Below are positions 3,896-28,091 of a stretch of DNA of 36,400 bases, one piece after another. The stretch is from an uncultured Pseudobutyrivibrio sp. (GTDB taxonomy: Bacteria; Bacillota; Clostridia; Lachnospirales; Lachnospiraceae): contig CAMEWP010000004.1 in NCBI GenBank assembly GCA_945946605.1, positions 1 to 36,400 on the forward strand, written 5' to 3'. The number at the start of each line of letters is the position of its first letter. The first letter of the stretch is position 1. The notes beneath the pieces were generated by a model that was given only the letters and a program-made list of their open reading frames with translations, was not told the DNA's origin and did no database searches. The translations under genes and the position numbers were made by a program.

Positions 3896-4324
3896 TTATT
3901 TGCCGGAGTATTTCTCCTCGCAGTATTTGCAGCGGTAAATCTCACGTTCTTCATCTGTCAGAACAAAGATCTGATCCAGCTCCTGTTCGATGGAGGTGAT
4001 ACAGCGGGGATTTTTACAGCTGATGACGTTTTTGATCTGTTTGGGAAGACGGAGTTCCTTCTTCTCCACAATGTGGTTTTCCTTGATCACATTTACTGTA
4101 ATATTGTGATCAATGTATCCTAAAATGTCGAGATCCAGAGCTTCAATGGGGCATTCCACTTTGATGATATCCTTTGAACCCATCTTGTTGCTCTTGGCAT
4201 TCATGATGATGGCAACGGTACAGTCAAAACGGTCCAGATGCAGATCGTGGTAGATCTTCATGCTCATGCCTGCCTGGATATGGTCTAAAACAAAGCCTTC
4301 CTGAATTCCACTGATATTTAACAT
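3896..4324 (-). CDS. pyrI: Aspartate carbamoyltransferase regulatory subunit
   Basis: [25 protein letters not shown]..., C-terminal CKNPRCIT...[10 protein letters not shown] zinc site; adjacent to pyrB. Confidence 0.95.
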
Positions 4325-5238
4325 ACTTCCACCTCCAGCAATGTGAGAATCAGAGCCATCCGGATGTAGACACCGTACTGTGCCTGACGGAAGTAAGCGG
4401 CTCTCGGGTCATCGTCCACTTCCACGGAAATTTCATTGACACGGGGAAGGGGATGGAGCACCATCATATCCTGTTTGGCCAGTGTCATCTTATTGCCGTC
4501 CAGAATGTAGAAATCTTTCATGCGCAGGTAATCTTCCTCGTTGAAGAAGCGTTCACGCTGTACCCGGGTCATGTACAGAATGTCAAGATCCGGCATGGCG
4601 TCCTCTAATTTTTCCACTTCCACATAGGGGATGTGGTTCTTCTCTAAAACATCTTCCCGGATATAACTGGGAACCCGCAGTTCCTCGGGAGAGATCAGGA
4701 CAAATTTAATGTTGGGGTAGCGCACCAGTGCATTGATCAGGGAATGTACGGTACGGCCGAATTTCAGATCACCGCAGAGACCGATGGTGAGATCTTTGAT
4801 CTCATGACGCAGGGAGCGGATGGTATAAAGATCTGTCAGTGTCTGGGTGGGATGCTGGTGGCCGCCGTCGCCTGCATTGATCACCGGAATGGTGGAATGA
4901 GAGGATGCAACCAGGGGAGCACCTTCCTTGGGATGACGCATAGCGCAGATGTCTGCGTAGCAGGAGATCACACGGATGGTGTCGGAAACGCTTTCTCCCT
5001 TGGCAGCAGAACTGCTGTCAGCAGAAGAAAATCCCAATACAGAACCGCCAAGATTTAACATGGCAGCCTCAAAACTTAAACGGGTACGGGTGCTGGGCTC
5101 GTAAAAACAGGTAGCCAGCTTCTTACCCTTGCAGCTGGAAGCATATTTTTCGGGATTGGCCTGGATATCATCCGCCAGATCCATTAGGTCTTCCAGTTCC
5201 TGGGTAGTAAAATCCAAAGGACTCATTAGATGACGCAT
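4318..5238 (-). CDS. pyrB: Aspartate carbamoyltransferase catalytic subunit
   Basis: ATCase motifs [31 protein letters not shown]; start at 5238 with aaggagg RBS. Confidence 0.97.
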
Positions 5239-5266
5239 ATTTTCCTCCTTTATGTGTATCAAAATG

Positions 5267-5324
5267 GATGGTGAACCATCGAATTTGCTGTAAATATGAT
5301 AGTACAGGAAGGACTGTTTCGCAA
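5267..5324 (-). promoter_or_regulatory. Candidate pyrB promoter and leader dyad
   Basis: Minus strand TTGCGA (5319-5324)-17-TATCAT (5296-5301); GATGGT-GA-ACCATC dyad at 5267-5280 downstream of the predicted start. Confidence 0.45.
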
Positions 5325-5351
5325 GAGGAAAATCTGTTCGCAATGGGTGGA

Positions 5352-5795
5352 TCAGTGGAAGGATCTGTCATTTTCCAAGGACAAAATTTTTTCAAAGATC
5401 AGCCCTGCCCCGGCCCAGAAAGGGGCATAATCCAGCCGGATGACGCCGTGAACATTGTACTTTGCTTTGCCGTAGTCCCAGGGGCAGCAGGAGAAATGTT
5501 TTAACAGCATACCGCTTACATATTCCACCGTAAGGATCCCACCGCTGTAAATGGCGCCCCGGAGTGCTGCAGGGAGACCCCGGAGCCGGCGACTGATAGG
5601 ATAAATGAAAGCCGCCAGACCGTAGATGGGAAACATCCACAGAGAGGTATGGCCCATGAGCCGGTGATCCGGATGCCGGGGGTTTTTCGGGTGCAGCAGG
5701 CTGCCTGCTGCCGTAAAAATAATTTCCATGCACCAGCCGACGATGCCGCAGATGAGAAAATTTTTCTGATATTGTTCGAAGGGATGTTGTTTCAT
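5352..5795 (-). CDS. Putative ABC transporter permease-like membrane protein (PF06541-like)
   Basis: Hydrophobic protein, [10 protein letters not shown]...[26 protein letters not shown]; start taken as the internal M ([12 protein letters not shown]). Confidence 0.65.
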
Positions 5796-5876
5796 GACAG
5801 GGGATCCTCTTTTTCTTTGGCACATCAAAGCACCGCAACTTTATGGTAGCAGTATTTGCCGGCGGAGCGGTTTCTA

Positions 5877-5926
5877 TGTAAAAAGAACCAGGAATCATTT
5901 CTGTAAAAAGAACCAGGAATCATTTC
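5877..5926. repeat. Two perfect tandem copies of a 25-bp unit TGTAAAAAGAACCAGGAATCATTTC
   Basis: 5877-5901 and 5902-5926 identical by direct reading. Confidence 0.95.
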
Positions 5927-5952
5927 CAAATTGAAGGAAAGTTTGTTATAAT
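5923..5952 (+). promoter_or_regulatory. Candidate murE operon promoter (TTTCCA-18-TATAAT)
   Basis: Consensus TATAAT at 5947-5952, 32 bp before the ATG; weak -35 at 5923-5928. Confidence 0.55.
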
Positions 5953-5983
5953 CTAATGTATATTATTGTGCATATGAGAGGCG

Positions 5984-7471
5984 ATGAATATGAAGAATAT
6001 CAGGCAGTTACTGGAAAGACTGGATTATACATTACTGCAGGGGGATCTGGAAGGCGAGATCACGGAGCTTGTCTACGATTCCCGGAAAGCCTGTGAGGGC
6101 TGTATGTTTGTCTGCATCCGGGGAACCGTGGTGGACGGACACCGTTTTGCGGCGGATGTGGCAGCAAAAGGAGCAAAGGTCCTTGTGGTGGAAGAAGAGG
6201 TAGAACTGCCACAGGATGCGGCAGAGAATGTGGCACTGGTGAAGGTGGCAGATACCAGGGCGGCACTTGCGTACCTTTCGGCAGCATATTTTGACTATCC
6301 GGCAGATACCTTAAAGGTCATCGGTGTCACCGGAACCAAGGGCAAGACCACCACTACCTACATGGTAAAATCTATTCTGGAGAGTGCAGGTTACCGGGTG
6401 GGTCTCATCGGCACCATTGAGGCCATTATCGGAGAAGAGACCATTCCGGCCAGCAACACCACACCGGAGAGTTATGTGGTGCAGCAGTATTTCCGCCGGA
6501 TGGCAGATGCCGGCTGTGACTGTGCGGTGATGGAAGTATCCTCCCAGGGGCTGATGATGCACCGGGTGGATGGATTTACCTTTGAGATCGGAATTTTCAC
6601 CAATATCGAGCCGGATCACATCGGACCAAATGAGCATGCTTCCTTTGAGGAATATATGGCCTGCAAAGCCATGCTTTTTTCCAGGTGCAGACTTGGCATT
6701 GTAAATATGGATGATCCCCATTACAAGGATATCTTAAAGGATCATACCTGTCAGGTGGAGACCTATGGATTTTCACCGGAAGCGGATATCCGGGCAGAGG
6801 ATACCCAGCTGGTAAAGAAACCGGGATATCTGGGAGTTTCCTATCATGTGGCAGGTCTGGTGGAAGGACCTGTGGAGATTGATGTGCCCGGGAAATTTTC
6901 CGTTTACAATTCTTTGACTGCCATTGCTATCTGCCATCATTTTAAGGTGACCCTTGCGGATATGCAAAAAGCCCTGAAGGTGGCAAAGGTAAAGGGACGC
7001 ATCGAGATGGTAAAGGTTTCGGATGATTTTACACTGATGATCGACTATGCCCACAATGCCATGAGTCTGGAAAGTCTTCTGACTACACTGCGGGAGTACG
7101 AACCGGGCCGTCTGGTGTGTCTGTTTGGCTGCGGGGGCAACCGGTCCAAACTGCGCCGCTATGAGATGGGAGAGGTGTCAGGCCGTCTGGCGGATCTGAC
7201 CATTATCACCTCCGACAATCCAAGAGATGAGGATCCCCAGGACATCATAGACGACATTAAGATTGGTATGGCAAAGACGGATGGAAAATATGTGGAGATC
7301 ATAGACCGCAAGGAAGCCATCCGATACGCTATAGAGCATGGAAAGAAAGACGATGTGATCGTACTGGCAGGAAAGGGACATGAGGATTACCAGGAGATCA
7401 AGGGAAAGAAGTATCCCATGGATGAGCGGGTGCTCATTGCAGAGGTACTGGAAGAGTTGAAGGACAGATAG
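5984..7471 (+). CDS. murE: UDP-N-acetylmuramoyl-L-alanyl-D-glutamate--2,6-diaminopimelate ligase
   Basis: GVTGTKGKTTTTYM P-loop, SNTTPES, DNPRDEDP motif. Confidence 0.94.
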   Translation: MNMKNIRQLLERLDYTLLQGDLEGEITELVYDSRKACEGCMFVCIRGTVVDGHRFAADVAAKGAKVLVVEEEVELPQDAAENVALVKVADTRAALAYLSAAYFDYPADTLKVIGVTGTKGKTTTTYMVKSILESAGYRVGLIGTIEAIIGEETIPASNTTPESYVVQQYFRRMADAGCDCAVMEVSSQGLMMHRVDGFTFEIGIFTNIEPDHIGPNEHASFEEYMACKAMLFSRCRLGIVNMDDPHYKDILKDHTCQVETYGFSPEADIRAEDTQLVKKPGYLGVSYHVAGLVEGPVEIDVPGKFSVYNSLTAIAICHHFKVTLADMQKALKVAKVKGRIEMVKVSDDFTLMIDYAHNAMSLESLLTTLREYEPGRLVCLFGCGGNRSKLRRYEMGEVSGRLADLTIITSDNPRDEDPQDIIDDIKIGMAKTDGKYVEIIDRKEAIRYAIEHGKKDDVIVLAGKGHEDYQEIKGKKYPMDERVLIAEVLEELKDR

Positions 7472-7497
7472 CAGCAAAAGACAGGAGAAGAGACCGG

Positions 7498-9759
7498 ATG
7501 AGGTATGCGGATATCATTATTGATATTTCCCATGAAAAATTAGATAAGACATTCCAGTATGGGATTCCGCCGGAACTGGAGGATCAGGTCCGGCTGGGAA
7601 TGCAGGTGTGGATTCCCTTCGGCAATGGTAACCGCAGGATCAGAGGGTATGTGGTGGAGTTTTCAGAGGAGCCCAAGGTGGCACCGGAGAAGATCAAGGA
7701 CATCGCAGGGATCCCAAAAGATGCTATTGCCATTGAGACACAGCTCATTGCCCTGGCTGCATGGATGAAGGAACATTACGGCGCCACCATGAATCAGGCC
7801 TTAAAGACCGTGATTCCCATTAAACGCCGGGAGTCTGTCCGGGAGAAAAAGGAAGTGCACTTAAATGTCAGCAGAGAAGTTGCACAGAGGGAACTGACGG
7901 AACTGATGGCCCGGAAAGGCCACAGCATGGCCAAGGAACGGCTGCTGAAGGAACTGCTGGCTCAACCTGTGATGTCCTGGGATACCATTACAGGCAAACT
8001 TCACATTTCTTCTTCAGTGATCCGTGATCTGGAAAAGCGAGGGATCCTGTCCATCTCCTTTATCAGAAGTTACCGCAACCCTGCGGAAGGGTTGGAACAG
8101 GCCAAAGACCATGTGCCGTTAACGGCCATGCAGCAGGCGGCAGTGGATGTGTTCTGCAAAGATTATGACAGGCAGGATTACGGAACTTATCTGCTCCATG
8201 GAGTTACAGGAAGCGGCAAGACGGAAGTATACATGGAGATGATCGACCATGTACTTTCCATGGGCCGGCAGGTTATCGTGCTGATCCCGGAGATCGCCCT
8301 GACATACCAGACCCTGATGCGGTTTTACCGCCGCTTTGGAGCCCAGGTGTCCATTTTAAATTCCAGAATGTCACCGGGAGAGCGGTTTGACCAGTATGAG
8401 CGGGCAAAATCCGGTGAGATACGGATCATGGTGGGGCCCAGGAGTGCCCTGTTTACACCGTTTGAGGATGTGGGGCTCATCGTGATGGATGAGGAGCATG
8501 AGGCGTCCTACAAGAGTGAGACGGTACCCAAATACCATGCCAGGGAGACAGCCATCGCCAGGGCAAAGATGTGCGGCGCTTCCGTGGTGCTGGGATCTGC
8601 CACACCTTCCGTGGAAAGCTACCGGAAGGCGGAGCTTGGAGAATACCGGCTGCTGTCGCTGCCTGTGCGGGTGGCAAAACAGCCTATGCCGGAGTGTGAA
8701 GTGGTGGATCTGCGGCAGGAACTGCGGGAGGGAAACCGTTCCATTTTCAGCAGATCCCTTCAGGAGGCCATTGCACAAAGGCTGGAGAGAGGAGAGCAGA
8801 CCATGCTCTTTATCAACCGCCGGGGAATGGCGGGCTTTGTTTCTTGCAGGGCCTGTGGCCATGTGATAAAATGTCCTCATTGTGATGTCTCCCTGAGCCT
8901 TCATGCAGGGGGACGGATGCAGTGTCATTACTGTGGATATGAGACGGCAAAGCCCGAGCGCTGCCCATCCTGCGGATCAAAGTATATCGGCGGATTTAAG
9001 GCAGGAACCCAGAAGATCGAAGAACTGGTAAAACAGGCATATCCCAAGGCCCGGGTTCTTCGGATGGATATGGACACAACAAGGGGAAAGAACGGCCATC
9101 AGGAGATCCTGTCCGCCTTTTCCAATCAGGAAGCGGACATCCTCATTGGCACCCAGATGATCGTAAAGGGACATGATTTTCCCAATGTGACCCTGGTGGG
9201 GATTTTAGCGGCAGATCTTTCCCTGAATTCCAGTGATTACCGCAGCAGCGAGAGGACCTTTCAGCTGCTGACCCAGGCGGCGGGAAGAGCCGGCCGGGGA
9301 ACAAAACCAGGAAGGGTGATCATCCAGACGTATCAGCCGGACCATTACAGTGTGACGGCAGCAGCCCATCAGGATTATGAGGAATTTTACCGTCAGGAGA
9401 TCTTTTACCGCAAAATGATGCAGTATCCGCCGGCGGCTCATATGCTGGTGATGCAGATCACTTCCCCGGTTTTAGAGGATGCTTTGGAGCTTTCCGAAGC
9501 GCTGGCCGAGCAGGCAAAAAGTTACCGCAAGGCAGTGCTTGGTGATGACGGCGCCAGAAATCGCCTGCAGATCAGTGGGCCGACGGAGGCGGCCATCTCC
9601 CGGGTAAATGATATTTACCGCAGGGTGATCTATATAAAGGATGAAGAATATGACAGCCTCATAGGATTAAAGGACATGGCAGAGAAGTTTCTGCTGGAAC
9701 ATCCTATTGGGCGGCAGAGTTATGTATGGTTTGATTTTGATCCCATGAATGGATTTTAA
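7498..9759 (+). CDS. priA: Primosomal protein N' (replication restart helicase)
   Basis: HGVTGSGKTEVYMEMI, DEEHEASYKSE, four-Cys-pair zinc region, IGTQMIVKGHDFPNVTLVGIL. Confidence 0.97.
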   Translation: MRYADIIIDISHEKLDKTFQYGIPPELEDQVRLGMQVWIPFGNGNRRIRGYVVEFSEEPKVAPEKIKDIAGIPKDAIAIETQLIALAAWMKEHYGATMNQALKTVIPIKRRESVREKKEVHLNVSREVAQRELTELMARKGHSMAKERLLKELLAQPVMSWDTITGKLHISSSVIRDLEKRGILSISFIRSYRNPAEGLEQAKDHVPLTAMQQAAVDVFCKDYDRQDYGTYLLHGVTGSGKTEVYMEMIDHVLSMGRQVIVLIPEIALTYQTLMRFYRRFGAQVSILNSRMSPGERFDQYERAKSGEIRIMVGPRSALFTPFEDVGLIVMDEEHEASYKSETVPKYHARETAIARAKMCGASVVLGSATPSVESYRKAELGEYRLLSLPVRVAKQPMPECEVVDLRQELREGNRSIFSRSLQEAIAQRLERGEQTMLFINRRGMAGFVSCRACGHVIKCPHCDVSLSLHAGGRMQCHYCGYETAKPERCPSCGSKYIGGFKAGTQKIEELVKQAYPKARVLRMDMDTTRGKNGHQEILSAFSNQEADILIGTQMIVKGHDFPNVTLVGILAADLSLNSSDYRSSERTFQLLTQAAGRAGRGTKPGRVIIQTYQPDHYSVTAAAHQDYEEFYRQEIFYRKMMQYPPAAHMLVMQITSPVLEDALELSEALAEQAKSYRKAVLGDDGARNRLQISGPTEAAISRVNDIYRRVIYIKDEEYDSLIGLKDMAEKFLLEHPIGRQSYVWFDFDPMNGF

Positions 9760-9772
9760 GGAGGATAATAAA

Positions 9773-10249
9773 ATGGCATTAAGACAGGTGAGAGTACAGG
9801 GAGACAGTGTTTTGACAAAGGTCTGCAGACCGGTGCAGCATATGACTCCCAGAATAAAAATGTTGATCGAGGACATGTTAGATACCATGTATGAGGAGGA
9901 CGGTGTAGGGCTTGCGGCTCCTCAGGTAGGTGTTCTGCGTCGGGTGGTAGTCATCGATGTGGGAGATGGCCCCATCATTATGATCAATCCGGAGATCATT
10001 GAGACAGAGGGAAGCCAGACCGGAGAAGAGGGATGCTTGAGTCTTCCGGGTAAATCCGGTACCGTCACAAGGCCGAATTATGTGAAGGCAAAAGCCCTTG
10101 ACGAAAATATGGAGCCTTTTGAGATTGAGGGAACAGAACTTCTGGCCCGGGCAATCTGTCATGAACTGGATCATCTGGACGGACATATGTATACAGAAAA
10201 AGTGGAAGGTCCCCTCCATGATGTAGTAGCAGAGGAGGAAGCAGAGTAA
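9773..10249 (+). CDS. def: Peptide deformylase
   Basis: GVGLAAPQVG, EGCLSLPG, CHELDHLDG motifs; start at 9773 with aaggagg RBS. Confidence 0.97.
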   Translation: MALRQVRVQGDSVLTKVCRPVQHMTPRIKMLIEDMLDTMYEEDGVGLAAPQVGVLRRVVVIDVGDGPIIMINPEIIETEGSQTGEEGCLSLPGKSGTVTRPNYVKAKALDENMEPFEIEGTELLARAICHELDHLDGHMYTEKVEGPLHDVVAEEEAE

Positions 10250-17022: not shown

Positions 17023-17919
17023 GTGGCACAAGCAATCAATAAAACAGGTAAGATTATAAAAGGCATTTCCGGATTCTACTACATTTATGTGGTGGGATCC
17101 GGAATTTATGAATGTAAGGCAAAAGGAATTTTCCGCCAGAAAAAAATGAAGCCACTGGTGGGAGATCACGTGACCATAGAAGTGCTGGATGAGGAGAACA
17201 AGCTGGGGAATCTTGTGGATATTGCTCCCCGTTTCAGTGAGTTGATCCGTCCTGCAGTGGCCAATGTGGATCAGGCTCTGGTGATCTTTGCCGGCCATGA
17301 TCCGGAACCGAATTTCCAGCTGTTGGACCGCTTCCTGGTGATGATGGAATATCAGCAGATCCCTGTGCACATCTGCTTTAATAAGGCAGATCTTCTGACG
17401 AAGGAGGAGCAGGATGATCTTTGCGGGATTTATGATGCGGCTGGGTATCAGGTGCTCTTTACCGATGCGCAAAAAGGAACTGGCGTGGAGGAGATCCGCA
17501 GCCTTCTGGCTGACAAGACCACCACAGTGGCAGGTCCTTCCGGTGTGGGAAAATCCACTCTGGTCAACTGCCTGATGGAGGATGCTGTTATGGAGACCGG
17601 CGCCATCAGTGAAAAGATCCGCCGGGGCCGTCATACCACCCGTCACAGTGAACTTTTGTATCTGGGAGAGAATACGTTTCTGATGGATACACCGGGATTT
17701 TCTTCCATGTATCTTCCGGAGTTTGAGAAGGAGGATCTGAAGAACTGTTATCCGGAGTTTCTTCCCTACAGCGGAGACTGCCGTTTTCTTGGATGCAGTC
17801 ACACCCATGAGCCGGATTGTGCGGTAAAACAGGCTTTAGAAGAGGGCAGGATCAGCCCTGTGCGTTATGAAAATTACAAATATCTTTATCATGAACTGGA
17901 GCAGGCAAAGAAATACTGA
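17023..17919 (+). CDS. rsgA: Small ribosomal subunit biogenesis GTPase
   Basis: Circularly permuted GTPase motifs: FNKAD, GPSGVGKSTLVN, DTPGFSS; C-terminal Cys/His zinc region; GTG start. Confidence 0.95.
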   Translation: MAQAINKTGKIIKGISGFYYIYVVGSGIYECKAKGIFRQKKMKPLVGDHVTIEVLDEENKLGNLVDIAPRFSELIRPAVANVDQALVIFAGHDPEPNFQLLDRFLVMMEYQQIPVHICFNKADLLTKEEQDDLCGIYDAAGYQVLFTDAQKGTGVEEIRSLLADKTTTVAGPSGVGKSTLVNCLMEDAVMETGAISEKIRRGRHTTRHSELLYLGENTFLMDTPGFSSMYLPEFEKEDLKNCYPEFLPYSGDCRFLGCSHTHEPDCAVKQALEEGRISPVRYENYKYLYHELEQAKKY

Positions 17920-17946
17920 CTGCCCCATGGCAAAAGGAGAAATCAA

Positions 17947-18597
17947 ATGAAATGCTTATCCCCATCCATACTGGCAGCTGATTACGGACACCTGGCAGAG
18001 GAAATCTGTAAGGTAGATGAAGCAGGAGCCCAGTATATCCATATCGATGTGATGGACGGCGTGTATGTGCCCAATATTTCCATTGGGATGCCTGTTATCA
18101 AGTTACTGCGTTCCTGTACGGACCGTATTCTGGATGTTCATCTGATGATAACAGAGCCTCAGCGTCATATTGCTGCCTTTGCGGAGGCGGGAGCCGATAT
18201 TATCACCGTACATGCAGAGGCCTGCACACACTTAGACCGCACCATCTCAGCTATTAAGGAGCAGGGAGTTTTAGCAGGCGTGGCATTAAACCCTGCAACC
18301 CCTATTTCTGTGTTGGAACATGTGCTTCCCATGGTGGATATGGTGTTGATCATGACGGTAAATCCGGGATTTGGCGGCCAGAAACTGATTCCCTATACCT
18401 TAGATAAGGTAAGGGAACTGAACAAGGTGATCCTTCGGAGAGGATTAAAAACAGATATCGAGGTGGACGGTGGCATCACCCTGGAAAATGTGGATGAGTG
18501 CCTGTCTGCCGGAGCCAACATTATTGTGGCGGGAAGTGCAGTGTTTGCCGGTGATTCCGCGGCAAATGTGGAGGCATTTCTGGAAAAGATGCAGTAG
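17947..18597 (+). CDS. rpe: Ribulose-phosphate 3-epimerase
   Basis: LSPSILAADYGHLAEE, HIDVMDGVYVPN, MTVNPGFGGQ, VDGGI. Confidence 0.97.
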   Translation: MKCLSPSILAADYGHLAEEICKVDEAGAQYIHIDVMDGVYVPNISIGMPVIKLLRSCTDRILDVHLMITEPQRHIAAFAEAGADIITVHAEACTHLDRTISAIKEQGVLAGVALNPATPISVLEHVLPMVDMVLIMTVNPGFGGQKLIPYTLDKVRELNKVILRRGLKTDIEVDGGITLENVDECLSAGANIIVAGSAVFAGDSAANVEAFLEKMQ

Positions 18598-18633
18598 TAT
18601 ACAATGCAGTAGTACAGGAGAAAGGTTTTTGGA

Positions 18634-19281
18634 ATGATGACGACCTATATTGTTTCCGGTGGCAGTTTGTCACCGGATTTTTTGAAAGAACAGTTAGAGA
18701 AGACAGAGGATGCCTATATCATTGCGGCAGACCGGGGACTGGAAGTGTGTATGTCAGCCGGCGTGGAGCCGGATCAGGTGATCGGAGATTTCGACTCCAT
18801 TGATCAGGAGGCAAAGGAGCACTTTTTGTCTGAGGCGAAAAATATCACAAAACTGAACCCTATCAAGGATGATACCGATACGGAGGCGGCGCTGCAGCTT
18901 GCTTTTTTGCATACATCCGGTGATATTGTGATCCTGGGGGGCACCGGCACAAGACTGGATCATGTGCTGGGAAATATTGCTCTGCTGGGCCAGGGATTTG
19001 AGCACAATAGAAGTGTGATCCTTCTGGACGAACATAACCGCATCCGCCTGCTGAAGGATGATTTTTCCATAAAAAAACGAGAGCAGTACGGCAAATATGT
19101 GTCGCTGCTCCCGTATTCTACTGAAGTTAAGGGACTTACCCTGAGAGGATTTTATTATCCTCTGACGGATTTTACCCTGACCGGTTACACATCTCTTGGC
19201 ATCAGCAATGAAATCTCAGAAGAGGAGGCTTCTGTGACTTTCACGGAAGGAGTCCTCATCATGGTAGAATCCAAAGACTGA
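18634..19281 (+). CDS. thiN: Thiamine diphosphokinase
   Basis: AADRGLEVCMSAGVEPDQVIGDFDSID, DDTDTEAAL, GGTGTRLDH. Confidence 0.92.
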   Translation: MMTTYIVSGGSLSPDFLKEQLEKTEDAYIIAADRGLEVCMSAGVEPDQVIGDFDSIDQEAKEHFLSEAKNITKLNPIKDDTDTEAALQLAFLHTSGDIVILGGTGTRLDHVLGNIALLGQGFEHNRSVILLDEHNRIRLLKDDFSIKKREQYGKYVSLLPYSTEVKGLTLRGFYYPLTDFTLTGYTSLGISNEISEEEASVTFTEGVLIMVESKD

Positions 19282-19288
19282 TGCGATA

Positions 19289-20737
19289 TTAGTGAAGGGC
19301 TTCTAATGTGGCCAGAAGCAACTGCCAGGTTCTTTCAACAGAAGAGATGGACAGCTGTTCTTTTGGCGTGTGTACATCCCGCATCTGTGGACCAAAGGAG
19401 ATGGCATCCAGACCCTGGATCTTGGAGGCGAACACGCCGCATTCCAACCCTGCATGGATTCCTTCCACAACCGCATCTTTACCAGACAATTTTTTGTATT
19501 CCCTGACAAGAATCTCTGTGATCACGGAGTCCGGGCGGTAATCCCATCCGGGATAATCACCTTTCACTTCGGTAGATCCTCCCATAAATCCGGTGAGAGA
19601 ATCCAGCTGATAAATGAGATAGCGTTTTTCAGACTCCTTGGAACTGCGGACGGAATATCCCAACTGAATGAGGTCGTCTGTCATCTGAAGGATTCCAAGA
19701 TTTAAGGAAGTCTGCACCAGGCCTTCGATTTCCGGACTCATTTTCTGGACACCGGAGGGAAGGTGGGTCATCAGTAGGATGGCCGCCTGTGAGGTTTTCT
19801 TTGAAACAGCTGTTACTTCAGATTCCTTCGTAAGGGTAAGATCCAGATGAGCATCCGGATCTGCTGCGCGCTGCTCGTCCTTTATCTGATCAAAGGTATC
19901 ACGGATCACATCAGCGATACGGTCCAGATCACTTTGAGGTACTGCGATACGGGCCGAGGCAGCATGGGTAATGGCATTGTCCTTTATACCGCCCTGAAGG
20001 GTGATGATACGGCAATCTGCAGTGCGTGATGCCATAAGAAGGAGCCGGGCAAGAGCATTGGCTGCATTCATGCGGCCTTTGTTGATCTCTGTGCCGGAGT
20101 GCCCCCCGGTAAAGCCTGTCAGGGCAATCTCTACAGCAGCGGCTTTGATGGTCTCGGTTTTATAGGGGAGATTGCAGAAGACGGTGGCACCGCCGGCACA
20201 GCTGACGGTAAAGATGCCTTCATCTTCGGAATCCATATTTAACAGGATCTTTCCCTTCAGATCCGAGGTATCCAGAGCGGTTGCCCCCAGAAGACCGATC
20301 TCTTCATCCGTGGTAAAGACCGCTTCCACAGCAGGGTGTGACAGGGTATCGTCATCTAACAGCGCAAGCATATACGCTACGGCAATGCCGTTGTCTGCAC
20401 CAAGAGAGGTGCCTTTTGCACTGATATAATCTCCGCAGATTTCAAGGTCAAGACCTTCTTTTGTCATATCTTTCTGACAGTCGGCAGTCTGAACTGCCAC
20501 CATATCCATATGTCCCTGCAGAATGACAGCAGGAGCATTTTCATAGCCGGCAGTGGCTTCCTTTTTGATCACTACATTGTACGCCTCATCCTGACGACAG
20601 GACAGATTTCGTTCTTTTGCAAATTCCATCAGATAATCACTGATCTGTCTGACATTTGTAGATCCGTGAGGGATACGGCAGATGTCCTCAAAAAATGAAA
20701 ATACTTTCTTTGGTTCTAATTCAGATAAAACACCCAT
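19289..20737 (-). CDS. pepD: Aminoacyl-histidine dipeptidase, M20 family (PepD)
   Basis: IPHGSTNVRQISDYL, LQGHMDMVA, LGADNGIAVAY, TTDEEIGLLGA, GGHSGTEI. Confidence 0.94.
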   Translation of the reverse strand: MGVLSELEPKKVFSFFEDICRIPHGSTNVRQISDYLMEFAKERNLSCRQDEAYNVVIKKEATAGYENAPAVILQGHMDMVAVQTADCQKDMTKEGLDLEICGDYISAKGTSLGADNGIAVAYMLALLDDDTLSHPAVEAVFTTDEEIGLLGATALDTSDLKGKILLNMDSEDEGIFTVSCAGGATVFCNLPYKTETIKAAAVEIALTGFTGGHSGTEINKGRMNAANALARLLLMASRTADCRIITLQGGIKDNAITHAASARIAVPQSDLDRIADVIRDTFDQIKDEQRAADPDAHLDLTLTKESEVTAVSKKTSQAAILLMTHLPSGVQKMSPEIEGLVQTSLNLGILQMTDDLIQLGYSVRSSKESEKRYLIYQLDSLTGFMGGSTEVKGDYPGWDYRPDSVITEILVREYKKLSGKDAVVEGIHAGLECGVFASKIQGLDAISFGPQMRDVHTPKEQLSISSVERTWQLLLATLEALH

Positions 20738-20791
20738 GGTTCTATTCCTATTCCTTTCTCATCCATATGGATCATAGCGGCATTTTTTGGC

Positions 20792-21139
20792 TTATTTATT
20801 CTGATAAACGATAAAACCGTTGCTTTTTAAAATGCCAAAATATTTACAGAGTCTCTCATACAGCTGGTTCGAGGCCTCGGTATGTTCGGCTTCCAGTTGT
20901 TTGCCGATTTCGTAAATGGTCTTCTGACCATCGATCTGTTTCCAGACAAAACTTCCGTAGCCCTCCAGCTTGATGTAGCTGCACCGGGGGCGGTGGAAGA
21001 ATTTCTGTGCGATCCAGTTATAAAAACCGGTGTGTTCCACGGTGATCTCCACCACGCCGTCCTCCAAAACCTTCCAGGGAAGGTCGGGACGGATGGCGGG
21101 AATCAGATCAACATAATTTTTTTCTTTACGATCTTTCAT
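20792..21139 (-). CDS. PqqD-family protein (RiPP recognition element-like)
   Basis: WKVLEDGVVEITVEHTG...SYIKLEGYGSFVWKQIDGQKTIYEIGKQLEAEH...LCKYFGILKSNGFIVYQNK follows the PqqD/RRE pattern. Confidence 0.78.
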   Translation of the reverse strand: MKDRKEKNYVDLIPAIRPDLPWKVLEDGVVEITVEHTGFYNWIAQKFFHRPRCSYIKLEGYGSFVWKQIDGQKTIYEIGKQLEAEHTEASNQLYERLCKYFGILKSNGFIVYQNK

Positions 21140-21173
21140 TGCGTTTTCTTTTCTTTAATATGCTTTTTCAGAA

Positions 21174-23102
21174 TTATTTCTTCTTCTGCTTTCTGACGGT
21201 AAAGGATACCAGGGTTGCGATCAGTAAAGCAAATGCAGCCAGACCCACCCAGTTGCCAACAGCGTAGAAGTTGTCTCCGTAAATACCGGAAAGATCAAAA
21301 ATGGAATCTACACCAATGACAGCCAGAATAGCAAGAAGGATACCTACAATACCTTCTCCGGCGATCATACCTGCGGAGAAAAGAACACCGTTTTCCACAG
21401 TGGATTTCTTCTCTGCTTCGCTGGAGTATTTACGATTGTTCTCCACAAACCATTTTACAATACCACCAACCATGATAGGTGCACTTAAGTGGATGGGCAG
21501 GTAAAGACCGATAGCAAAAGCAAGAACCGGGATTCCCAGAATCTCAACTACGATAGCAAGGAAAATACCGATACCGATCAGTACCCAGGGAAGGGTGCCG
21601 CCCATAACGCCTTCCACAACCATTTTCATCAAAGTTGCCTGAGGCGCTGAAATCTGCTCGGAACCAAATCCCCATGCTGCATTCAGAAGGTACATGACAC
21701 CACCGATGGTAACGGCGGCAACTACAGCACCGATGAGCTCACCGATCTGCTGGTTCTTAGGTGTGGCACCAACAATGTAACCGGTTTTCAGATCCTGTGA
21801 AGTATCACCGGCCATAGCGGCAACGATACAGATGATGGAACCGATGGCGATGGCTGCGATCATACCTTCAGAACCGATGGTGCCGGTTGCTTTCAGGATC
21901 AGTGTGGTAACGATCAGGGTAGCGATGGCCATACCGGAAACCGGGTTGTTACTGCTTCCTACGATACCTACCATACGGGCAGATACAGTTGCGAAGAAGA
22001 AACCGAATACGATGATGATCAGAGCACCGATAAAGTTTACCGGGATGGTGGGGATCAGCCACATAGCAATGGCCAGGATCACGATACCAACCAGGATCAC
22101 CGGCATGGGAAGATCACGGGAGGTACGGTCATTGCCGGAAGCACTTTTGCCCAGACCGGAAATGGCTTTCTTAAAGGTGCGTACCATGGTGGGGAAAGTC
22201 TTAACCAGACTGATGACACCGCCGGCAGCTACGGCACCGGCACCGATGTAACGGATATACTGGCTCCATAAGGACCATACATCCAGCTGGTTAAAGGCGA
22301 TGAGTTCTCCGGCGCTGTTTGCAACGGCAGAGAGCGCATCTCCTCCGAAAAATGCGATGCAGGGCATCAGCACAAACCAGGAAAGGACACCGCCGGCCAG
22401 CATATAACTGGATACTCTGGGTCCGCAGATGTAACCAACACCTGCCAGTGCCGGAAGTACATCCATACCTACGCCGCAGGTATATTTACCTTTGAAGGAG
22501 AAGTCTACTTCGCTGGGGAATAATTTCAGACCGTCAGCAATAAACTTGTAAACAGCAGCGATGCCAAGACCGGAGAAAACGATTTTGGATTTCTCGCCGC
22601 CTTCTTCTCCAGCCAGAAGAACTTCTGCACAGGCAGTTCCTTCCGGATAGGGAAGTGTTCCATGTTCCTCAACGATCAGTGCGGAACGAAGGGGTACCAT
22701 GAACAGTACGCCCAGAATACCGCCGCACAGAGCGATCAGGGTAATGGTCAGGAAAGAGGGCATTTCACATTTGCCTTCTGCTGCCCACATAAAAAGTGCG
22801 GGCATGGTAAAAATAGCTCCTGCAGCCAAAGACTCTCCGGCAGAACCGATGGTCTGTACCATGTTGTTTTCCAGGATAGAATCGCGCTTTAAGATCACGC
22901 GGATCACACCCATGGAAACAACGGCAGCCGGGATAGATGCAGAAACTGTCATACCAACACGCAGCCCAAGGTACGCATTGGCAGCACCAAATACCACTGC
23001 CAGGATAATTCCGAGGATGACAGATACCACTGTCATCTCCGGCATTACCTTATCAGCAGGGATAAATGGCTTGAAATTTTTCTTGTTTTCGTTGTTTTCC
23101 AT
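21174..23102 (-). CDS. OPT-family oligopeptide transporter
   Basis: 642 aa, many TM helices; EMTVVSVILGIILAVVFGAANAYLGLRVGMTVSASIPAAVVSMG. Confidence 0.92.
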   Translation of the reverse strand: MENNENKKNFKPFIPADKVMPEMTVVSVILGIILAVVFGAANAYLGLRVGMTVSASIPAAVVSMGVIRVILKRDSILENNMVQTIGSAGESLAAGAIFTMPALFMWAAEGKCEMPSFLTITLIALCGGILGVLFMVPLRSALIVEEHGTLPYPEGTACAEVLLAGEEGGEKSKIVFSGLGIAAVYKFIADGLKLFPSEVDFSFKGKYTCGVGMDVLPALAGVGYICGPRVSSYMLAGGVLSWFVLMPCIAFFGGDALSAVANSAGELIAFNQLDVWSLWSQYIRYIGAGAVAAGGVISLVKTFPTMVRTFKKAISGLGKSASGNDRTSRDLPMPVILVGIVILAIAMWLIPTIPVNFIGALIIIVFGFFFATVSARMVGIVGSSNNPVSGMAIATLIVTTLILKATGTIGSEGMIAAIAIGSIICIVAAMAGDTSQDLKTGYIVGATPKNQQIGELIGAVVAAVTIGGVMYLLNAAWGFGSEQISAPQATLMKMVVEGVMGGTLPWVLIGIGIFLAIVVEILGIPVLAFAIGLYLPIHLSAPIMVGGIVKWFVENNRKYSSEAEKKSTVENGVLFSAGMIAGEGIVGILLAILAVIGVDSIFDLSGIYGDNFYAVGNWVGLAAFALLIATLVSFTVRKQKKK

Positions 23103-23121
23103 TGTTTATCTCCCATTCTGT

Positions 23122-23137
23122 TATATTGGTATATTGG
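23122..23137. repeat. Tandem 8-bp repeat TATATTGG x2 in the opt leader
   Basis: TATATTGGTATATTGG between the predicted opt start site and ATG. Confidence 0.6.
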
Positions 23138-23156
23138 TAAAAAAACATACCTACCT

Positions 23157-23185
23157 ATTTTAACTTGATACGGGAGAAATAGCAA
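23157..23185 (-). promoter_or_regulatory. Candidate opt promoter TTGCTA-17-TAAAAT
   Basis: Minus strand -35 at 23180-23185, -10 at 23157-23162. Confidence 0.5.
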
Positions 23186-23193
23186 TAGTTTAT

Positions 23194-23256
23194 TGCGTCG
23201 GGGACGGTTCTTTTGCCACGCAGATTGTCCCACTGTCATGAGGGGTGTCCCTTTGC
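23194..23256. repeat. REP-like element at the 3' end of the RAYT gene
   Basis: 23194-23218 TGCGTCGGGGACGGTTCTTTTGCCA is identical to 24191-24215; 23239-23256 resembles the inner part of the 39-bp arm. Confidence 0.88.
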
Positions 23257-24015
23257 CACAGTTCTTTCGATAACACCGCGAGGAATGCCTGTCAGACGGT
23301 TAAGCTGTCTGATAGAAATTCCCTTCTTTTTCAAAAGCAGAATGTATTCTTCTCTTTGAGACAGAGAAAGATTTTGGAAGTCCGTTACTGTATGACAATT
23401 GCAAACATCTGCAATGATATCTCTGGCCACATCATCTGGGAGTCGATGTTTCATATTATCAACATCTAAGCATGCTGCATCGCGATAACAATAGGCGTGA
23501 TGCAGGTCGTAAAATGATGTTAGGTTTCCTAATATATTTAGAATAAATTCGGTGTCTACCAGCGTGGAATTGGAAGAAATATATTGATGAAAACTGCTCC
23601 ATGGATAGGAAAGACCGCATTCATTTTCCAAACCAGCTTTGAGAGGATTACAGTGGATATAGCAAAGAACATTCAGCAGATATGAGGTATCAAGAACAGG
23701 TTCACTGTAAAAGCGACCTTGTTGGAGAGGACCTGTTCTCTGATATTTCATGTTAAACCAGACGGCATATCGGGTGTTAATCTTTTCGAAAACAGAAGAG
23801 AGAGGCGTACTGCCAATATGGATCAGCAGATGCACATGATTGCTCATAAGACAATAGGCATATAAATGATAGTCGCACTCCTTTTTATAATATTCAAGGA
23901 TCTGGAGATATTTTTGATAATCTTTGTCTTCTTCGAACAACAGTTGTCGATCGATACCCCTGATCACAACATGGTAAACATCAGTAGGGGATAGTTTTCT
24001 GGATTTTCTTGGCAA
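23236..24015 (-). CDS. REP-associated tyrosine transposase (RAYT, Y1/HUH superfamily)
   Basis: SRKLSPTDVYHVVIRGIDRQLLF, MSNHVHLLIHIG (HxH), YLLNVLCYIHCNPLKAGL, YPWSSFHQYI; flanked by REP-like sequence. Confidence 0.9.
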   Translation of the reverse strand: MPRKSRKLSPTDVYHVVIRGIDRQLLFEEDKDYQKYLQILEYYKKECDYHLYAYCLMSNHVHLLIHIGSTPLSSVFEKINTRYAVWFNMKYQRTGPLQQGRFYSEPVLDTSYLLNVLCYIHCNPLKAGLENECGLSYPWSSFHQYISSNSTLVDTEFILNILGNLTSFYDLHHAYCYRDAACLDVDNMKHRLPDDVARDIIADVCNCHTVTDFQNLSLSQREEYILLLKKKGISIRQLNRLTGIPRGVIERTVAKGHPS

Positions 24016-24190
24016 TGTAGATACTCCTTTTGATTAAACAATAAATTCTAATAAAATAGCGGAAACATTAGAAAACCGGGAGAACCGGTATGTTCTGATA
24101 AACAAGATGTAAGAAGTTTAAGATACCATTTTAGTGGTTCTAGATTACCTTAAAATATGAGAAATGTAAAGAACTTTTATGTGCGTCGTG

Positions 24191-24310
24191 TGCGTCGGGG
24201 ACGGTTCTTTTGCCATGAGGGTTGTCCCTATGGATGCGTTTTTTATATATACCAATAATAACCCAGACCACAGGGACAACCCTCATGGCAAAAGAACCGT
24301 CCCCGACGCA
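24191..24310. repeat. REP palindrome: perfect 39-bp inverted repeat with 42-nt centre
   Basis: 24191-24229 is the exact reverse complement of 24272-24310. Confidence 0.95.
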
Positions 24311-24330
24311 GAAATCGCAAAAGTAATCCC

Positions 24331-24359
24331 TTGACAACTCTTGGCGGATAGTGTATTCT
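24331..24359 (+). promoter_or_regulatory. Candidate feoA promoter TTGACA-17-TATTCT
   Basis: Consensus -35 at 24331-24336, -10 at 24354-24359. Confidence 0.7.
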
Positions 24360-24366
24360 AAGCACA

Positions 24367-24388
24367 GTTATATAAGACTAACTTATAT
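24367..24388. promoter_or_regulatory. Candidate operator at the feoA start site
   Basis: GTTATATAAGACTAAC (24367-24382) overlapping the perfect dyad ATATAAG-ACTAA-CTTATAT (24370-24388). Confidence 0.5.
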
Positions 24389-24406
24389 GGAATGGAGATG
24401 ATAATT

Positions 24407-24619
24407 ATGAGATTAACAGATGCACATGAAGGAGCAGAATACACCATCAACAGAATCAATACCCAGGATGAGGAGTTAAATGCCTTCCTTTTTTCTCTGG
24501 GATGTTACAGTGGAGAGCCCATTTCCGTGGTGTCAAGAAAAAAGAGTGGTCTTGTGGTTTCCATCAAAGATGGCAGATATAACATTGATCATCTTTTGGC
24601 AGATGCCATTGAGGTATAA
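24407..24619 (+). CDS. feoA: FeoA-family ferrous iron transport protein
   Basis: MRLTDAHEGAEYTINRINTQDEELNAFLFSLGCYSGEPISVVSRKKSGLVVSIKDGRYNID; directly upstream of feoB. Confidence 0.88.
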   Translation: MRLTDAHEGAEYTINRINTQDEELNAFLFSLGCYSGEPISVVSRKKSGLVVSIKDGRYNIDHLLADAIEV

Positions 24620-24645
24620 AACCATCAAAGAAGGATAGAAAATCA

Positions 24646-24671
24646 GGTGACATAAGTCACCGATATTTTTT
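24646..24671 (+). terminator. Weak intrinsic terminator/attenuator-like hairpin between feoA and feoB
   Basis: GGTGAC-ATAA-GTCACC followed by GATATTTTTT. Confidence 0.4.
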
Positions 24672-24679
24672 ACATGATG

Positions 24680-24695
24680 GTTAGGCGTGACTAAC
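24680..24695. promoter_or_regulatory. Second candidate operator GTTAGGCGTGACTAAC upstream of feoB
   Basis: GTTAG-N6-CTAAC dyad; same GTTA-N8-TAAC layout and GACTAAC right half as the feoA site. Confidence 0.5.
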
Positions 24696-24735
24696 ACAAG
24701 AAGGATGAATATAACTATATAGAAAAAGCAAAACA

Positions 24736-26721
24736 ATGAGAATTGCAATGACAGGAAATCCAAACTCGGGTAAAACCACCATGTTCAATGCCTTGACAGG
24801 ACAGAACGAGCATGTGGGAAACTGGGCCGGGGTGACCGTTGATAAAAAGGAACATGCGGTAAAGAAAACTTTTTATGAGGGTGATGAGGAAGTGATTGCT
24901 GTGGATCTTCCGGGGGCGTACTCTATGTCGCCTTTCACATCTGAGGAGAGCATCACAAGTTCCTATGTAAAAAAGGAACATCCTGACGTGATCATCAATA
25001 TCGTGGACGCTACAAACCTCAGCAGAAGTTTGTTTTTTACCACCCAGCTGCTGGAACTTGGGATTCCTGTGGTGGTGGCTCTTAACAAAGATGACATTAA
25101 TATAAGGAAAGACACTAAAATTGATGAAAATCTTCTTGCCCAAAAACTGGGCTGCCCGGTTATAAAAACTTCGGCAATCTCGTCGACTGGTCTGAAAGAA
25201 GTGATGGGGGCAGCCTTTGCTGTGAAGGGAAAGGAAGTGGCTGCCCCGTACCGACAGGGAGACATCGATCTGACAAACCGACAGGAAGTAGAGGCGGCGG
25301 ACAGAAAACGATTTGCCTTTGTAAATGAAATCGTTGCCAAAACAGAGTCGAGAAAGCAACTGACAAAAGATAGAAAATTGGACGATGCCATCGATCAGGT
25401 GGTGACACATCCGGTATGGGGGCTGTTGATCTTTGCAGCAATCATGTGGCTGGTGTTCTTTATTTCCCAGTCCACCTTAGGTACCTGGCTTTCGGAAATT
25501 CTTACCGGATGGATCGAAATCTTCCAGGAATGGGTTGCCGGAAAGGTGGAACATGCGTCCCCTATCTTACAGTCCATTCTGGTTGACGGAATCATCGGCG
25601 GCGTAGGTGCTGTGGTAGGTTTCCTTCCCCTGGTGATGATCATGTATTTCCTGATCGCCCTGCTGGAGGACTGCGGTTACATGGCCAGAGCTACGGTTGT
25701 GCTGGATCCCATCTTTAAGAGAGTGGGGCTTTCCGGAAAATCCGTGATTCCCATGGTCATTGGAACCGGATGCGGTGTGCCGGCCATCATGGCCTGCCGT
25801 ACCATTAAAAATGAAAGAGAACGCAGAGCGACAGCAATGCTTTGCACCTTCATGCCCTGCGGCGCAAAACTTCCGGTGATTACCCTGTTTGCCGGAGCAT
25901 TCTTCCCGGGATCCAAATGGGTTGGGCCTCTCATGTATTTTGTGGGAATCGGTCTGATCCTTCTGGGGGCGCTTTTGATCAAAGAGATCACAGGCATGAA
26001 ATATCGGAAAACTTTTTTTATTATGGAGCTTCCGGAGTATAAAGTGCCTTCCCTTGGATTTGCTGTAAGATCCATGCTGGAGCGCGGAAAATCTTACATC
26101 GTAAAGGCCGGCACCATTATCCTTGTCTGCAACACGGTGGTTCAGATCATGGCAACCTTCACACCTACCCTTGCTGTGGCAGCGGAGGATAGTTCCGATT
26201 CCATTCTTGCAGCAATCGCATCACCCTTTGCGGTGCTTTTGGTACCCGTTGTGGGCTTTGCAAGCTGGCAGCTGGCAGCGGCAGCAATTACCGGTTTTAT
26301 CGCAAAAGAAAATGTGGTTGGAACTCTTGCTACGGTATTTTGCATTACAAACTTTATCGACACGGAAGAACTGGCGCTGGTATCAGGTGGAAGTGAAGTG
26401 GCAGCAATTATGGGCCTTACACAGGCGGCAGCCCTTGCCTATCTGATGTTTAATCTGTTTACACCGCCCTGTTTTGCAGCACTGGGAGCCATGAATTCAG
26501 AGATGAAATCAGGTAAATGGCTGGCGGGAGCCATCGCTTTCCAACTGGCAACGGGATTTACCATTGGATTTGTGGTGTACCAGGGTGGAACACTTCTTAC
26601 AACCGGTGCCTTGGGATCGGGATTTGTAGGCGGCCTTACCGCGGTGCTGGTGATGGTGGCAGTGATTGCAGGACTGTGTGTCCGCAGCAGAATGAACTTA
26701 AAAAAGGAATACGCGCTTTAA
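24736..26721 (+). CDS. feoB: Ferrous iron transport GTPase/permease FeoB
   Basis: MTGNPNSGKTTMFNALTG, DLPGAYSM, NKDD; GTGCGVPAIMACRTI membrane domain. Confidence 0.97.
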   Translation: MRIAMTGNPNSGKTTMFNALTGQNEHVGNWAGVTVDKKEHAVKKTFYEGDEEVIAVDLPGAYSMSPFTSEESITSSYVKKEHPDVIINIVDATNLSRSLFFTTQLLELGIPVVVALNKDDINIRKDTKIDENLLAQKLGCPVIKTSAISSTGLKEVMGAAFAVKGKEVAAPYRQGDIDLTNRQEVEAADRKRFAFVNEIVAKTESRKQLTKDRKLDDAIDQVVTHPVWGLLIFAAIMWLVFFISQSTLGTWLSEILTGWIEIFQEWVAGKVEHASPILQSILVDGIIGGVGAVVGFLPLVMIMYFLIALLEDCGYMARATVVLDPIFKRVGLSGKSVIPMVIGTGCGVPAIMACRTIKNERERRATAMLCTFMPCGAKLPVITLFAGAFFPGSKWVGPLMYFVGIGLILLGALLIKEITGMKYRKTFFIMELPEYKVPSLGFAVRSMLERGKSYIVKAGTIILVCNTVVQIMATFTPTLAVAAEDSSDSILAAIASPFAVLLVPVVGFASWQLAAAAITGFIAKENVVGTLATVFCITNFIDTEELALVSGGSEVAAIMGLTQAAALAYLMFNLFTPPCFAALGAMNSEMKSGKWLAGAIAFQLATGFTIGFVVYQGGTLLTTGALGSGFVGGLTAVLVMVAVIAGLCVRSRMNLKKEYAL

Positions 26722-26745
26722 AGACAATGAAAAGGAGGAACTCAG

Positions 26746-26916
26746 ATGGCAGATGCAATTGTAGTAATTATTATACTTGTGGCTTTTTCCCAGGCAATCA
26801 GATATATTATAAAAGAAAAGAGAAGGGGCAATGGCTGTATCGGCTGTCCCAATGCCTCAAAATGCGGCGGGGGCTGCCAATGTGAGAAAACATCACAAAC
26901 CAAAAGCCGCCCTTGA
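26746..26916 (+). CDS. FeoB-associated Cys-rich membrane mini-protein (56 aa)
   Basis: MADAIVVIIILVAFSQAIRYIIKEKRRGNGCIGCPNASKCGGGCQCEKTSQTKSRP; aggagg RBS; directly downstream of feoB; absent from the supplied ORF track. Confidence 0.87.
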   Translation: MADAIVVIIILVAFSQAIRYIIKEKRRGNGCIGCPNASKCGGGCQCEKTSQTKSRP

Positions 26917-26993
26917 GAAATATCAGATGATGTGCTATATTTAAGTTCTGTAATTATGCCATGAAAGTACAATTCAAAGGAGAATATATAGAT

Positions 26994-28091
26994 ATGAAAT
27001 TAGGCATTGTCGGACTCCCAAATGTTGGGAAAAGCACATTATTTAACTCACTGACCAAGGCGGGAGCAGAATCTGCAAATTATCCCTTCTGTACCATCGA
27101 CCCCAATGTAGGTATCGTTACGGTGCCGGATGACCGGCTGAAGAAGTTAGGGGATCTCTACCATTCCAAGAAAGTTACCCCTGCGGTGATTGAATTTGTA
27201 GATATTGCCGGTCTGGTAAAAGGTGCCAGCAAGGGTGAGGGACTGGGCAATCAGTTCCTGGCAAATATCCGTGAAGTGGATGCCATTGTCCATGTAGTGC
27301 GCTGTTTTGATGATTCCAATGTGGTTCATGTGGACGGAAGTGTAGATCCCAAGAGAGATATTGAGACCATCAACCTGGAACTTTTGTTCTCTGATATGGA
27401 GATTCTGGAGCGCCGCTACGCAAAGACATACAAGCAGGCCAGAATGGATAAGACCCTGGCAAAGGAAGTGGCAATGTTAGAGCGCCTGAAGGATCATCTG
27501 GAAGCCGGCAACATGGCTAAGACATTTGAAGTTCAGGACGAAGATGAGGAACTGATCTTCAAGGGATACAACCTGCTGACTGCAAAGCCTGTGATCTATG
27601 CGGCAAATGTGGATGAGGACAGCCTGACAGATGACGGGGCTTCCAATGAATATGTGGCAGCAGTGCGTGAGTATGCAGCCGGCGAGGGCAGCGAGGTATT
27701 TGTGATCTGTGCCCAGATCGAGGAGGAGATCGCAGAACTGGACGATGAGGAAAAGGCAATGTTTCTGGAGGAACTGGGCTTAGAAGAGTCCGGCCTGGAA
27801 AAGCTTATCAAGGCAAGCTACAGCCTGTTAGGCCTTATCAGTTATCTGACATCCGGCGAGGATGAGACCCGTGCATGGACCATCAAAAAAGGAACAAAGG
27901 CACCTCAGGCAGCCGGTAAGATCCACACAGATTTTGAGCGTGGATTTATTAAGGCTGAAGTGGTAAATTATCAGGATCTTTTAGACTGCGGAAGCACAGC
28001 GGCAGCAAAGGAAAAAGGACTTGTCCGGGTGGAGGGCAAGGAATATGTGGTACAGGACGGCGATGTGATCCTGTTCCGTTTCAATGTATAA
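26994..28091 (+). CDS. ychF: Redox-regulated ATPase YchF (OLA1/Obg family)
   Basis: MKLGIVGLPNVGKSTLFNSLTKAGAESANYPFCTIDPNVG; TGS-like C-terminus. Confidence 0.97.
   Translation: MKLGIVGLPNVGKSTLFNSLTKAGAESANYPFCTIDPNVGIVTVPDDRLKKLGDLYHSKKVTPAVIEFVDIAGLVKGASKGEGLGNQFLANIREVDAIVHVVRCFDDSNVVHVDGSVDPKRDIETINLELLFSDMEILERRYAKTYKQARMDKTLAKEVAMLERLKDHLEAGNMAKTFEVQDEDEELIFKGYNLLTAKPVIYAANVDEDSLTDDGASNEYVAAVREYAAGEGSEVFVICAQIEEEIAELDDEEKAMFLEELGLEESGLEKLIKASYSLLGLISYLTSGEDETRAWTIKKGTKAPQAAGKIHTDFERGFIKAEVVNYQDLLDCGSTAAAKEKGLVRVEGKEYVVQDGDVILFRFNV

Follow-up and report, generated by a model that had tools for sequence, protein, structure and literature searches.

A RAYT gene flanked by inverted repeats

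In the window, the whole 36,400-nt stretch of DNA analysed here, the rsgA-rpe-thiN operon (17023-19281, plus strand) and the gene for the GTPase YchF (26994-28091, plus strand) enclose an interval (19282-26993) that holds pepD-pqqD-opt and a RAYT gene on the minus strand, followed by feoA, feoB and a FeoB-associated ORF on the plus strand. The pepD-pqqD-opt block (19289-23102) encodes an M20 peptidase, a PqqD-like protein and an OPT transporter, a neighbourhood kept at other loci in relatives, where opt is accompanied by pqqD and often by pepD. The ORF between feoB and ychF (26746-26916) encodes a small FeoB-associated, Cys-rich membrane protein.

RAYTs are domesticated Y1/HUH transposases tied to the dispersal of REP palindromes. 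The gene at this locus (Y1/HUH REP-associated tyrosine transposase; 23236-24015, minus strand) has a TTG start with AAGGAG just upstream and encodes 259 aa with a putative C-terminal HTH-like tail. The protein matches Pfam Y1_Tnp (E 7.5e-13) and reaches 59.3 bits against NCBIfam REP_Tyr_transpos, under the cut-off of 80; by its sequence, it is related to this equivalog but lies outside it. In a five-member alignment, the HUH motif NHVH (N59-H60-V61-H62) and residues Y119, N123 and P124 of the catalytic-tyrosine motif YIHCNP are invariant, so that both HUH histidines and the catalytic tyrosine of the RAYT or class 2 TnpA_Y1 domain are intact. The W[EQ]/FQ motif is missing, with LQ aligned where TnpA_REP has WQ. 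E. coli TnpA_REP in complex with a REP hairpin is the best PDB match (4er8, E 2.7e-7) and is the nearest solved structure both by sequence and by model. The AF2 model, of moderate confidence (mean pLDDT 72.7), has C-terminal helices at residues 218-230, 235-242 and 246-256; HTH matches in Pfam are below cut-off for this protein and better in its relatives. The gene is present in single copy in the window's genome, a 78%-complete assembly. The sequence-only reading of a RAYT gene at this locus is thus borne out by the Y1_Tnp domain, the HUH histidines and the catalytic tyrosine.

Inverted repeats, each with TGCGTCGGGGACGGTTCTTTTGCCA, lie on both sides of the gene, at 23194-23231, 24191-24228 and 24273-24310. 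The earlier description of a RAYT gene bracketed by REP-like sequence with an identical 25-mer holds, in that the window contains three exact copies and both flanks carry the repeat; the description of the flanks needed revision, as an inverted pair makes up the right element and the left array extends further than described, to about 23261. The left terminal inverted repeat (23194-23231, plus strand), 3´ of the RAYT gene, is a single core copy, TGCGTCGGGGACGGTTCTTTTGCCACGCAGATTGTCCC. It continues into further ~20-bp tandem unit(s) ending in GTGTCCC (23232-23261, plus strand), which overlap the 3´ end of the gene and encode its last codons, a layout found also in the repeats of sister RAYTs. 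The right element (24191-24310), 5´ of the gene, is REPIN-like, with two inverted core copies in a perfect 39-bp stem. As DNA this pair folds at -58 kcal/mol (z -14.6), and the left copy folds no better than shuffles.

The terminal inverted repeats (TIRs) score 56 compared with a shuffle maximum of 25, giving the two-sided arrangement of TIRtron/TIRYT elements. GGGGACGG departs at one fixed position from GGGGWSAS, a motif of most TIRtron/TIRYT members, not all; GGGGACAG is present in some members of the RAYT family, for example L083. No GT[AG]G-footed hairpin, the mark of a canonical REPtron, was found in the window's repeats or folds, and Rfam gave zero matches across the whole window.

Copies of the repeat in the window's genome and in relatives

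A search of the 1.89-Mb assembly with the 15-mer core, allowing up to one mismatch, gave 13 copies, and a 22-mer with up to three mismatches was found at 12 sites genome-wide; the reversed control gave 0. The repeat therefore has dispersed copies, as some TIRtron/TIRYT elements do. The exact 25-mer occurs four times, three times in the window and once on another contig (C79), so it is not confined to the window. Copies take the form of inverted pairs (C5), 43-nt hairpins and single cores. The hairpins, GCGTCGGGGAC...GTCCCCGACGC, lie on C32 and C79 and have z values of -3.3 and -4.5 as ssDNA. We also noted that on C79 the 43-nt repeat (L006) is located just 5´ of the RBS of a site-specific-recombinase-like gene. 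As to the link proposed earlier between the RAYT gene and repeat dispersal, the part that concerns repeats dispersed in the genome is confirmed.

Among 299 family genomes, 64 have a RAYT match and 19 carry the exact 15-mer core (reversed control 0 in each genome). The two co-occur: 13 of the 19 core genomes have a RAYT match, compared with 64/299 overall (Fisher p 6.4e-6). Two genomes have at least 2 core copies but no RAYT match, and G001, a genome of the same genus as the window's, lacks both RAYT and core. At 51 of 73 family RAYT loci the TIR score exceeds the best shuffle by 10 or more; these TIRs usually start with GGGGACG, and across the 73 loci the repeat sequence often tracks the RAYT subgroup. 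The window's RAYT clusters with those of L057-L060, L094 and L095 (support 92/99), whose repeats have in common a GGGACG(G/T)TTCTT(T/C)T-like core as well as tandem ~20-bp units; related RAYT genes have related repeats. A contig scan with the single window protein returned four loci only.

The sequence around the common core varies. Stem arms differ by genome, often in inverted pairs: the core sits between TGAGTCA and TGACTCA in G255 (L186-L192) and between AAGACA and TGTCTT in G104 (L138-L147), which has 73 exact core copies, many in inverted pairs, and the arms differ again in G114 (L178-L185). A general description of the repeats as stem-loops with a conserved loop and a genome-specific stem applies to G255 and, in part, to G104 and G114; it was rejected for the window's genome, where a mean of 1.7 of 6 positions pair, no higher than the cross-genome level. 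On contig C48 of G421, at about 4300-10050, at least five repeat copies are spaced ~1.2-1.8 kb apart, as if there were one per intergenic gap.

Promoters, neighbours and the order of events

The promoters that the sequence-only reading assigned to the flanking genes, TTGCTA-17-TAAAAT for opt (23157-23185, minus strand, 8 bp outside the left repeat) and TTGACA-17-TATTCT for feoA (24331-24359, plus strand, 20 bp outside the right repeat), are correct as sequence, and both point outward from the RAYT island. Since promoter-like matches in the region do not exceed the chance count (6 observed, 5.9 expected), the two are predictions only. Palindrome-like sequences lie before feoA (ATATAAGACTAACTTATAT, 24370-24388) and before feoB (GTTAGGCGTGACTAAC, 24680-24695); these could be metal-regulator (DtxR/MntR-type) operators.

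The thiN-ychF gap measures 7.7 kb in the window. The rsgA-rpe-thiN operon is a conserved left neighbour of ychF in relatives: in 10 of 29 relatives ychF is immediately preceded by rsgA, rpe or thiN on the same strand, the thiN-ychF gap is mostly 38-268 bp where the two adjoin, and in several relatives without a RAYT gene the operon stands directly before ychF. The ychF gene is also a conserved neighbour of the window's RAYT clade. RAYT genes of this clade adjoin ychF in three other genera: G260 has the window's gene order, rsgA-RAYT-ychF, and in G238 and G215 the RAYT gene and ychF are immediate neighbours that diverge; the flanks of the remaining RAYT loci examined contain no ychF. Sister RAYTs beside ychF, together with thiN-ychF adjacency in relatives, suggest that the RAYT-ychF association probably predates the opt and feoAB neighbours, and that the RAYT gene at this locus is probably older than both. 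Read most simply, this synteny would mean that RAYT arrived near ychF before the opt and feoAB blocks, which were then added around it.

We therefore favour, with a probability of roughly 0.7, a single-copy TIR-flanked RAYT ("TIRtron", with a TIRYT-like HUH protein) that has its own small family of dispersed GGGGACGGTTCTTTTG repeats and that was resident between thiN and ychF before opt and feoAB. The unit would have occupied the rsgA-rpe-thiN/ychF interval since before several Lachnospiraceae-like genera diverged, and the pepD-pqqD-opt block on one side and the feoAB block on the other are probably later additions that produced the present opt-RAYT-feoA layout. By analogy with E. coli TnpA_REP, the protein may recognise single-stranded repeat hairpins, with the C-terminal HTH probably adding to recognition, and its catalytic tyrosine may cut them; the repeats would thereby be spread by RAYT as non-autonomous elements. 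Layouts that look like insertion between two promoters may thus have the reverse history, in which the transposase gene was there first.

According to the sequence-only reading, opt and feoA instead already had a short divergent promoter region between them, with ~28 bp separating the two -35 boxes, when the island inserted there, and the island could now insulate or modulate both promoters. Both predicted -35 boxes do lie just outside the repeats, and the repeats are dispersed, hence probably mobile. The comparison with relatives, however, does not support this history. Adjacency of opt and feoA is absent among the feoA relatives examined and among the 29 best opt relatives, so that the sampled relatives provide no opt/feoA empty site, and with sister RAYTs adjoining ychF, chance alone would have to explain why the window's RAYT gene also lies near ychF, at ~2.7 kb. 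In addition, RAYT is directed toward opt, co-directional with it and with no terminator predicted between the two genes, so insulation is not the obvious outcome and read-through from RAYT into opt would be at least as plausible. We regard insertion between the two promoters as improbable. A clean empty site with both flanks was not found for any RAYT island; two-flank candidates for the sister islands in G215 and G238 were rejected, as homology on one side ends at the repeat edge, and the opposite side has a different flank or runs off the contig. In 16 of 19 other G238 congeners and 4 of 5 other G215 congeners, the match covers the ychF side and not the RAYT gene, so that the gene would need to have been lost many times or else to have inserted next to ychF repeatedly. 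The only congener of the window's genome sampled is 85% complete, with no ychF orthologue in the assembly.

Repeated targeting of the ychF site is accordingly a live alternative to common ancestry, if a rather unlikely one. Independent insertions would be guided by a preference for the DNA of ribosome-binding sites (CTCCTT when read on the element strand); the lack of RAYT at ychF in most congeners fits this history. The upstream repeat edge abuts the Shine-Dalgarno (SD) sequence of the divergent gene at L057, L058 and L060 (ychF) and at L095 (an nth-like gene), and in G215 10 of 26 copies abut an SD compared with 3.8% of background intergenic positions (p 2e-8). Against this, the effect is weak in G421 (4/29, p 0.02), not significant in G153 (2/13) and absent from the window's genome (0/13), where the right repeat borders on the feoA -35 region instead of an SD. 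We devised the SD test post hoc, and CAAAG, or part of it, may belong to the element, so the SD-abutting repeats are a lead only. Another possibility is that the repeats have largely or wholly lost mobility and now serve chiefly as regulatory binding sites, with the HTH tail binding ~20-bp spaced GGGAC/GTCCC half-sites and repressing RAYT and its neighbours. The HTH-like C-terminus, the tandem ~20-bp GTCCC units and the single RAYT copy in the window's genome are consistent with such a role, but many genomes have dispersed and paired copies at a distance from RAYT genes, which call for a spreading mechanism, and the protein's HTH matches fall under Pfam cut-offs, making this quite unlikely.

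The SD-abutting repeats of G215 are followed by a start codon (usually CAAAGGAG-N-ATG) and most of them face open frames; the loci with SD-abutting outer edges are L060, L148, L149, L151, L154, L156, L157, L286, L287 and L256. A tentative and rather doubtful extension of this lead is that the HTH-tailed RAYT clade mobilises GGGGAC-cored repeats with a preference for RBS DNA, copies landing just upstream of the SD and leaving it intact. If true, this preference would put a structured repeat in many mRNA leaders.

Comparison with known RAYT systems

In the TIRtrons described by Di Nocera et al. (2013, PMC3733652), a RAYT-like gene is flanked by terminal inverted repeats with the motif GGGGWSAS, and dispersed copies occur in moderate abundance. 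Most TIRtron RAYTs fall in TnpA_Y1 subclass 2.1, which is equated with Bertels group 1 and has HTH tails, and REP-like sequences were not found there (Quentin et al. 2018, PMC6006769). The window's unit resembles TIRtron/TIRYT elements in its RAYT-like gene, long terminal inverted repeats and GGGG motif, in repeats that at times overlap the 3´ end of the gene, and in dispersed copies that are moderately abundant and occur in dimers. It differs in having GGGGACGG where the published consensus is GGGGWSAS, and in a repeat whose conserved core, GGGGACGGTTCTTTTG, is longer and which includes tandem ~20-bp GTGTCCC units. With subclass 2.1 the protein has in common NHVH, Y---NP, a length of about 240-260 aa, single copy number, TIRs and, putatively, an HTH-like C-terminal tail; unlike that subclass, it has LQ for W[EQ]/FQ, and its genome contains related dispersed repeats whereas the survey reported no REP-like sequences.

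The likeness to E. coli TnpA_REP and its REPtron (4er8) extends to the HUH fold, the catalytic residues and inverted, REPIN-like repeat pairs. However, the window's protein is longer, with an extra C-terminal domain, and its repeats have no GTAG foot and are defined by a conserved core and half-sites. GGGGACGGTTC was not found printed in a RAYT-repeat context in the literature searched. Judged on sequence, the unit is best classed among the TIR-flanked RAYTs (TIRtron/TIRYT) and fits the TIRtron/subclass 2.1 kind, differing in the motif GGGGACGG and in its clear dispersed repeats. For RAYTs like those of subclass 2.1, reported without REP-like repeats, the window and its relatives provide gene-repeat pairs with a common core, which makes recognition by RAYT directly testable.
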